A stretch of 64,000 bases of DNA from an uncultured Pelagibacteraceae bacterium (GTDB taxonomy: Bacteria; Pseudomonadota; Alphaproteobacteria; Pelagibacterales; Pelagibacteraceae). The stretch is from the NCBI GenBank assembly GCA_902528175.1, contig CABZRN010000002.1, positions 1 to 64,000 on the forward strand. Reading direction: 5' to 3'. Below the pieces are notes generated by a model. The model was not told where the DNA came from and ran no database searches. It saw only the letters and a list, made by a program, of their open reading frames with translations. Positions 10,344 to 12,372 of the stretch are shown one piece after another. Made by a program: the position numbers and the translations under genes. The number at the start of each line of letters is the position of its first letter. Positions within the stretch are counted from its first letter, which is position 1.

Positions 10344-11750
10344 TTAACAGCTGTAATACATCTCAAATTCAATTGGGTGTGGTGTATGTTCAAAATTATG
10401 AACTTCTTCCATCTTCAATGAAATGTATGCATCAATTTGGTCATCAGTGAAAACACCACCTTCAGTTAAGAATTTTCTATCTTTGTCTAAACTCTCCATA
10501 GCCTCTCTTAAAGAACCACATACAGTTGGGATTTTACTTACCTCGTCCTCTGATAAAGCATAAAGATCTTTATCAAAAGATTTACCAGGATCGATTTTAT
10601 TTTTAATTCCATCTAGACCTGCCATTAACATAGCAGCAAAAGTTAGATAAGGATTTCCAGCAGCATCGCCAAATCTGATTTCACATCTTGCTGCCTTTTT
10701 ACTTAATGTTATTGGTATTCTGCATGAAGCTGATCTATTTCTGGCAGAATAAGCTAATAACACTGGCGCCTCAAATCCAGGAATTAATCTTTTATAACTA
10801 TTAGTTGTTGCGTTAGAAAATGCGTTGATTGCTTTAGCGTGTTTTAAAATTCCACCAATATAATTTAAAGCAAGATCCGATAGCCCAGCATATTTGTCCC
10901 CTGAAAACAATGCTTTATCACCTTTCCATATAGATTGGTGAACGTGCATTCCAGAACCATTATCGCCTTTAACTGGTTTAGGCATAAATGTAGCTGTCTT
11001 ACCAAATGAGTGTGAAACCATATGAACGGCGTACTTATAAAGTTGCAAATTATCTGCTTGATCTACAAGTGTCCCAAAGTACATACCTAATTCATGTTGG
11101 CTTGGTGCTACTTCATGGTGATGTTTTTCAACTTTAATACCCATGTCTTTCATAGCTTTTAAATATTCACTTCTCATATCTTGAGCACTGTCAACTGGTG
11201 GTACTGGAAAATATCCCCCTTTGATACCAGGTCTATGACCCATGTTACCGTTGTCGTAGTCTTTACCTGTATTGTAAGGTCCCTCAATACTATCTATTTT
11301 AAAACCTGTTTCATTCATGTCGTTTTTAAATTTAACGTCATCAAATACAAAAAATTCTGCTTCTGGACCAAAAAATGCCTTATCACCAATACCTGATTTT
11401 TTTAGGTATGCCTCAGCTTTTTTTGCTGTTCCTCTAGGATCTCTTTCATAAGGATCTTTCTTTATTGCATCTAAAATATCACAAAAAATATTTAAAGTGT
11501 TATGAGACGTAAAAGGGTCGACTATTGCTCTTGATAAATCTGGTTTCAAAATCATGTCAGACTCATTAATTGCTTTCCAACCAGCTATTGACGAACCATC
11601 AAAAAATATTCCTTCATCTAACATATCCCCGTCTACTACTTTAGCATCCATAGTAACGTGTTGAAGCTTTCCTCTTGGATCTGTAAATCTTAGATCTACG
11701 TATTCTATTTCTTTATCTTTAATTGTTTTAAGTACGTTATTTGCGCTCAT
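10344..11750 (-). CDS. glnA: Glutamine synthetase type I
   Basis: '[15 protein letters not shown]', '[10 protein letters not shown]', '[11 protein letters not shown]', '[14 protein letters not shown]'. Confidence 0.97.
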
Positions 11751-11797
11751 ATTCTTATCTCCAAATTTTCTGGATTAGTATCAAAAATAATTATAAC

Positions 11798-11848
11798 TTA
11801 ATCCTGATATAAATTAATATCTCCTATGTCATTTAAACATAGGATTAA
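11798..11848 (-). promoter_or_regulatory. Nested inverted repeats in the glnA leader / glnA-ybaK intergenic region
   Basis: TTAATCCT (11798-11805) pairs with AGGATTAA (11841-11848); TCCTATGT (11822-11829) pairs with ACATAGGA (11837-11844); the two share a right arm. Confidence 0.5.
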
Positions 11849-11889
11849 ACATGAGAAATTACTTTTTTGCAAACAATCAAGGGTTGTAA

Positions 11890-12372
11890 ATGAATTCAAT
11901 TTTAGCCAGTGAAGCAGTGATTAGAGTTCAAAAAGCTCTTAACGAATTCAATGACAATATTAAAATTATGATTTTAGAAAAGACTGCAAGAACAGCAAAA
12001 GATGCTGCAGATGCACTTAATTGTGAAATTGGGGCAATAGTTAAAAGTTTACTTTTAAAAGCTGATGATAAATTTATTTTGTGTTTGATACCCGGTGATA
12101 AGAAATGTTCATTGAATAAATTAAAAAAAATTATTTCAAAAAAAGATGTATGCATGGCTGATGCAGATCAAGTTAAAAAAAACACAGGTTTTAGCATCGG
12201 AGGTGTTTCACCAGTAGGTCATTTAAAAAAAATTGACGTTTTGGTTGATAAAACATTTGATAGATTTAAAGAAGTTTTTGCTGCTGCAGGCCATCCAAAT
12301 AGTATTTTTAAAATAAGCAACTTAGATCTTTTAAAAATTACTAATGGTAAAACTTTGGATATTTCAGAATGA
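11890..12372 (+). CDS. YbaK/EbsC-family aminoacyl-tRNA deacylase
   Basis: 'TAKDAADALNCEIGAIVKSLLLK', 'SIGGVSPVGHLKKIDVLVDKTF', 'VFAAAGHPNSIFKI'. Confidence 0.88.
   Translation: MNSILASEAVIRVQKALNEFNDNIKIMILEKTARTAKDAADALNCEIGAIVKSLLLKADDKFILCLIPGDKKCSLNKLKKIISKKDVCMADADQVKKNTGFSIGGVSPVGHLKKIDVLVDKTFDRFKEVFAAAGHPNSIFKISNLDLLKITNGKTLDISE

Follow-up and report, generated by a model that had tools for sequence, protein, structure and literature searches.

A conserved dyad upstream of glnA and amtB in SAR11 bacteria that matches the box of VtlR/LsrB-type LysR regulators

The leader of the glutamine synthetase gene glnA was analysed in a SAR11 genome (Pelagibacteraceae), whose nearest named relatives are single-cell genomes, e.g. 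AG-913-A07 and AG-912-F23. The window, which is the whole stretch of 64,000 nucleotides analysed, contains glnA on the minus strand and a divergent gene on the plus strand, with the following features:

10344–11750, minus strand: glnA, glutamine synthetase of 468 aa (Pfam PF03951, Gln-synt_N, and PF00120, Gln-synt_C; SAR11 orthologues)
11759–11762, minus strand: Shine-Dalgarno GGAG of glnA, from the sequence (AGGAG is conserved across leaders)
11874–11886, minus strand: box A, CAACCCTTGATTG (CAA-N7-TTG), a second conserved block that abuts the start of the divergent gene
11890–12372, plus strand: divergent gene for a YbaK/ProX-type aminoacyl-tRNA editing protein of 160 aa (Pfam PF04073)

The ends of glnA and an iscA-type gene lie only 5 bp apart in the window. 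In some relatives the two genes are separated by about 230 bp (L038:4407-4641), and this spacer apparently holds one small unannotated minus-strand reading frame.

Glutamine synthetase leaders of SAR11 were gathered and aligned. The element tATGy-N7-rCATA-GsTGnTAT was present in 48/48 distinct leaders with invariant internal spacing, and the flanks drifted. The anchor pattern ATG-N8-rCATA predetermined part of this conserved core, yet every leader contained the pattern, and G3, A6 and T7, which lie to the right of the anchor, were also found in 48/48. The distance from the end of the dyad to the glnA start codon was 72–114 nt over the 48 leaders. With a matrix built from the glnA sites, 51 SAR11 glnA leaders scored at least 22.4, and 57 glnA leaders from other Alphaproteobacteria did not exceed 3.4. 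Box A was present in 42 of the 48 leaders, its distance to the centre of the dyad being about 44–46 bp or about 18 bp; it lies directly upstream of whatever divergent gene occurs, be it the YbaK-type gene or, where this is missing, an EamA transporter gene. An earlier note on this DNA had offered an operator as one of two readings of the leader, and a conserved DNA operator was indeed found in the SAR11 glnA leaders. Its elements in the window, together with the promoter predicted below, are:

11825–11841, minus strand: 17-bp dyad TATGTTTAAATGACATA (ATG-N9-CAT, LysR-type T-N11-A geometry), the putative recognition half of the operator (ATG-N8-rCATA in 48/48 leaders; dyad also at amtB)
11817–11829, minus strand: VtlR/LsrB box by consensus match, here ACATAGGAGATAT (exact in 40/48 leaders; the clade of the window deviates)
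11775–11783, minus strand: predicted extended -10 element TGATACTAA (TGnTA), its hexamer beginning at offset 49 when counted from the first box base (37/48 leaders have TGnTA with its TA at this offset)
11766–11770, minus strand: predicted glnA transcription start at about 11768, offset 61 from the box, with a 5' UTR of about 18 nt (conserved spacing and PMC8844928)

The matrix from the glnA sites also gave matches upstream of amtB. At amtB the site forms an almost perfect palindrome of 17 bp, TATGCA-N5-TGCATA, located directly after a terminator-like hairpin of hupA, and its dyad ends 72–82 nt before the amtB start, similar to the 72–96 nt of nearly all glnA leaders. A second conserved block, CTAATCAnCGTTAG, was observed between the amtB operator and its -10 (e.g. 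L162:1280-1374) and may be a -35 or a second LysR contact site. Over 101 genomes, the exact palindrome TATGYR-N5-TGCATA gave about 164 strand hits against 6 for the reversed control, where hits were counted on both strands and the control is imperfect, its CpG content being different. Among the non-coding sites inspected, 31/33 were located at glnA or amtB, the regulon searches having used patterns and selected stretches. One of the two others, an operator-like palindrome directly behind hupA (L208:1501-1517) in a genome in which amtB was not found (G030), is apparently a relic of the amtB promoter.

Other candidate targets were rejected. No glnA-type site was found upstream of gltB, which removed gltBD as a third target, or upstream of ntrY. 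A site at an XRE-type regulator gene in one genome (L339) was not conserved in 30 orthologues, one-mismatch palindromes elsewhere fell nearly all within coding sequence, and matches between glnA and iscA in relatives were probably coding and due to chance.

Promoter geometry was compared next to the operator. Counted from the G of GCAT, the -10 hexamer begins at 49 bp in 37/48 glnA leaders and at 48–50 bp in nearly all others, the offset outside the 37 having been assigned by reading. At amtB a -10-like hexamer (TATAAG and variants) lies at 48–49 in nearly all leaders, and in the rhizobial abcR1 promoters the -10 lies at 49 (CATACC or CATATC; in S. meliloti 17 bp after TTGCCG). The box of the S. 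meliloti abcR1 promoter was located at -61 to -49 (PMC8844928), and this position, carried over together with the conserved spacing, gives the predicted glnA start at about 11768. The predicted -10 hexamer of the window is then at 11780–11775, the dyad is centred at about -65, and the box at SAR11 glnA occupies about -61 to -49 of a predicted sigma-70 promoter. When this A+T-rich leader DNA was simply scanned for -10 elements, the proposed one did not stand out. The main alternative is a good TATAAT at 11795–11790, and with this as the -10 the dyad would still lie outside the transcript.

The earlier note had described the leader as a set of competing inverted repeats, and all of its quoted sequences and repeats were recovered on the minus strand where it had placed them. 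In the window, TCCTATGT and ACATAGGA form 8 pairs, TTTAATCCT and AGGATTAAG form 9 pairs including one G-U, GGATTA and TAATCC form 6 pairs, and the TCCA/TGGA pairing is also present. The leader strand folds more stably than 200 dinucleotide shuffles (z -4.0; second run -4.2), so that for this single sequence the fold goes beyond chance. Over 27 SAR11 glnA leaders the mean fold z was -0.33 (sd 1.3), and for the portion downstream of position 30 it was +0.48. An Rfam search of the glnA leader returned no family match. Helix pairs were counted by script in 26 aligned sequences. The ATG/CAT core of the first helix was paired in 26/26 without any variation, and being invariant it provides no evidence on RNA pairing. 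The pairings TTTAATCCT/AGGATTAAG, GGATTA/TAATCC and TCCA/TGGA were complete only in the window and a near-identical relative and mostly broken elsewhere; most relatives retained a minority of the pairs of helices 2 to 4, and the homologous leaders showed no covariation for the outer helices. Within this alignment, the strong hairpin is peculiar to a single small clade, in which the dyad has become more symmetric (TCCTATGT/ACATAGGA).

A start at about 11768 would place all of the listed hairpins upstream of the transcript, except for part of the small one near the Shine-Dalgarno. The caveat of the earlier note, that the repeats might partly precede the start, agrees with this prediction, which puts the start downstream of 11805. 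Its compound operator survives in part: an operator is there, though not one built from all of the listed repeats but a single dyad operator plus promoter.

The VtlR/LsrB box was published as GCAT-N3-TG-N3-T (PMC7486931, PMC8844928), and the nfeR1 site was later described as TGCA-N6-GCAT (PMC10746234). This consensus is matched exactly in 40/48 distinct SAR11 glnA leaders. The box of the window, ACATAGGAGATAT, departs from it at two of the seven fixed bases, and the amtB sites keep the dyad and GCAT and lack the TG-N3-T arm. ATG-N9-CAT, the LysR T-N11-A dyad overlapping the box, occurs in all SAR11 glnA leaders and amtB sites, with identical spacing in the abcR1 promoters of S. meliloti and R. 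leguminosarum. Four rhizobial lsrB/vtlR loci, two of them near-identical Sinorhizobium (L412, L414), were scanned with a matrix from SAR11 glnA alone, which was blind to LsrB. In 4/4 loci, out of about 9,700 positions each, the highest score fell on the LsrB box in the promoter of abcR1, downstream of lsrB. The site reads ATGC-N7-GCAT-N3-TG-N3-T in the three best-scoring loci (S. meliloti, GATGCGCAAACGGCATGGCTGTCATGC; R. leguminosarum, CTATGCAGAACACGCATGACTGGCATGC); locus L413 scored only -3.1, yet this was first within its own locus. In 48 control loci the same matrix gave a median best score of -7.9 and a maximum of 3.4. On sequence comparison, the glnA operator thus matches both the published VtlR/LsrB box and the actual rhizobial LsrB site.

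A candidate binder was found among the proteins. One conserved LysR protein was detected in 17 of 25 SAR11 genomes, which are mostly incomplete, and a second, unrelated one in two; none was found in 16 genomes of the neighbouring family. Over its full length (296 aa) the conserved protein shares 45–47% identity with LsrB of S. meliloti and VtlR of R. leguminosarum. Among solved structures its best match is A. tumefaciens LsrB (9hh1; E 2e-90 against 2e-28 for the next), and the recognition segment LSQSAISRQ is identical in the SAR11 protein and LsrB/VtlR. As judged by these similarities, SAR11 encodes a VtlR/LsrB orthologue. No cysteine was found in 17/17 of the SAR11 proteins, so that the redox residues C144 and C273 are absent. 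Redox sensing by LsrB works through cysteines (PMC11975290); this thiol switch is therefore not usable by the SAR11 protein, for which a small-molecule effector is likely. The gene order is folE, a quinone-oxidoreductase-like gene and the LysR gene in L394 and L404, where no trxB neighbour was found, the rhizobial order being trxB-lsrB-abcR. In the closed genome G012, glnA, amtB and the LysR gene lie far apart. In G009 (92% complete) the SAR11-type glnA and amtB and the LysR gene were all not found, either by co-loss or by an assembly gap.

We consider it highly probable that 11751–11850 is the glnA promoter and that its core is the DNA operator at which the VtlR/LsrB-type LysR regulator encoded by SAR11 itself acts. 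In this model, the ATGc-N7-GCAT dyad around -65 is the site recognised by a pair of LysR dimers (a tetramer), which would also reach over the TG-N3-T arm. From there the regulator would touch RNA polymerase at the extended -10 (TGnTA, with a start at about 11768) and turn transcription on. With amtB under the same control, uptake of ammonium and synthesis of glutamine would be regulated jointly and without PII. The binding itself, its activating sign and nitrogen status as the signal are inferred. Several observations speak against a LysR regulator here, namely the deviating box of the window (two of seven bases), the amtB sites without the TG-N3-T arm, the lack of cysteines, a folE instead of a trxB neighbour, and gltBD without a site.

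Other readings of the same DNA were weighed against this LysR operator. One is an RNA switch or attenuator, in which alternative hairpins in a long glnA leader would gate translation through the Shine-Dalgarno; a mutually exclusive switch of this kind was the other reading offered by the earlier note. The stable fold of the leader in the window and a terminator-like hairpin at 11844–11822 are in keeping with it, and riboswitches such as SAM-II and SAM-V are used by SAR11 (PMC5069961). The glnA RNA and Downstream-peptide motifs (RF01739, RF01704) likewise precede nitrogen genes including glnA in marine bacteria (PMC2864571), but the SAR11 leader has neither an Rfam match nor a conserved RNA fold. 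Helices 2 to 4 are not kept among relatives, the outer and Shine-Dalgarno-proximal pairings break, the mean z over 27 leaders is near zero, and the predicted start lies downstream of the hairpins. The element is also a palindrome at amtB and matches a rhizobial protein-binding site, and an RNA switch is accordingly extremely improbable.

The DNA operator could instead be bound by another regulator, most likely NtrX, a response regulator of the NtrC family, which is present in SAR11 and linked to nitrogen limitation (PMC13198564). For NtrX of Rhodobacter a GCA-N9-TGC motif has been suggested (PMC9223101), with the same spacing as ATG-N9-CAT, and NtrC/NtrX operators (TGCAC-N7-GTGCA; GCA-N9-TGC; CAA-N2-5-TTG) resemble the SAR11 operator in their glnA/amtB-type targets and dyad length. 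Their bases differ, however, and box A, with CAA-N7-TTG, departs from the published CAA-N2-5-TTG. SAR11 ntrY has no site upstream, whereas Brucella and Sinorhizobium NtrX sites are in the ntrY promoter. The neighbouring family, whose fetched glnA leaders lack the glnA box, has the same NtrX recognition helix, GMERSALHRKLK. Binding by NtrX would also leave both the TG-N3-T arm and the match at abcR1 unexplained, and NtrX is very unlikely as the binder. Binders of the CRP/NtcA and AmtR types can presumably be set aside on dyad parity. The same LysR regulator might also act with the opposite sign and repress glnA and amtB when nitrogen is plentiful, as LysR-type proteins activate or repress (PMC7486931) and the sequence does not fix the sign. 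An operator with its centre at -65, ahead of an extended -10, nevertheless occupies the position of an activator site, from which LsrB activates abcR1 and nfeR1 (PMC8844928, PMC10746234), and we regard repression as unlikely. An activating VtlR/LsrB-type regulator is the reading that we retain.

The type of operator and the type of regulator are already known. VtlR/LsrB operators of Rhizobiales occur at abcR1 (Agrobacterium, Sinorhizobium), nfeR1 (Sinorhizobium) and vrsA (Agrobacterium), and share with SAR11 the dyad ATGC-N7-GCAT (TGCA-N6-GCAT at nfeR1), the TG-N3-T arm, a box 49 bp before the -10, an orthologous LysR protein and an identical recognition helix. The published targets that we found in Rhizobiales are sRNAs and stress genes, whereas the SAR11 sites lie directly before glnA and amtB, and the SAR11 regulator, unlike rhizobial LsrB, has no redox cysteines and no trxB neighbourhood. 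An incomplete literature search gave no case of a VtlR/LsrB-type site directly before glnA and amtB in a lineage that lacks PII and has a cysteine-free regulator. In cyanobacteria (NtcA) and Bacillus (GlnR/TnrA), one short dyad likewise joins glnA and the ammonium transporter gene without NtrBC, although these proteins belong to unrelated families and their operator sequences are different.

SAR11 are among the most abundant cells of the ocean, and their response to nitrogen limitation works without PII, NtrB and NtrC. As the direct regulator of their glnA and amtB, NtrYX has been the usual suspect. PII was detected in 0/37 genomes of Pelagibacteraceae, as against 21/24 of the neighbouring family. 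In phage-infected SAR11, a group of nitrogen genes that includes glnA, amt and gltBD goes up jointly (PMC12753301). LsrB is required for the nitrogen-stress-induced sRNA NfeR1 of S. meliloti (PMC10746234), which makes a nitrogen role for the SAR11 regulator plausible. Tentatively, and as a proposal that we consider slightly more likely to fail than to stand, we suggest that a nitrogen metabolite is sensed directly by the VtlR/LsrB-type LysR protein without cysteines, and that in SAR11 this protein has taken over from PII and NtrBC as the switch of ammonium uptake and assimilation. The finding points to the missing nitrogen control switch in some of the commonest bacteria of the sea, and with a named regulator, two main targets and an exact operator it makes the question of SAR11 nitrogen control experimentally testable. 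Core nitrogen assimilation may thus have come under a rewired LysR regulator that is conserved in Alphaproteobacteria and is known for its control of sRNAs and redox stress.
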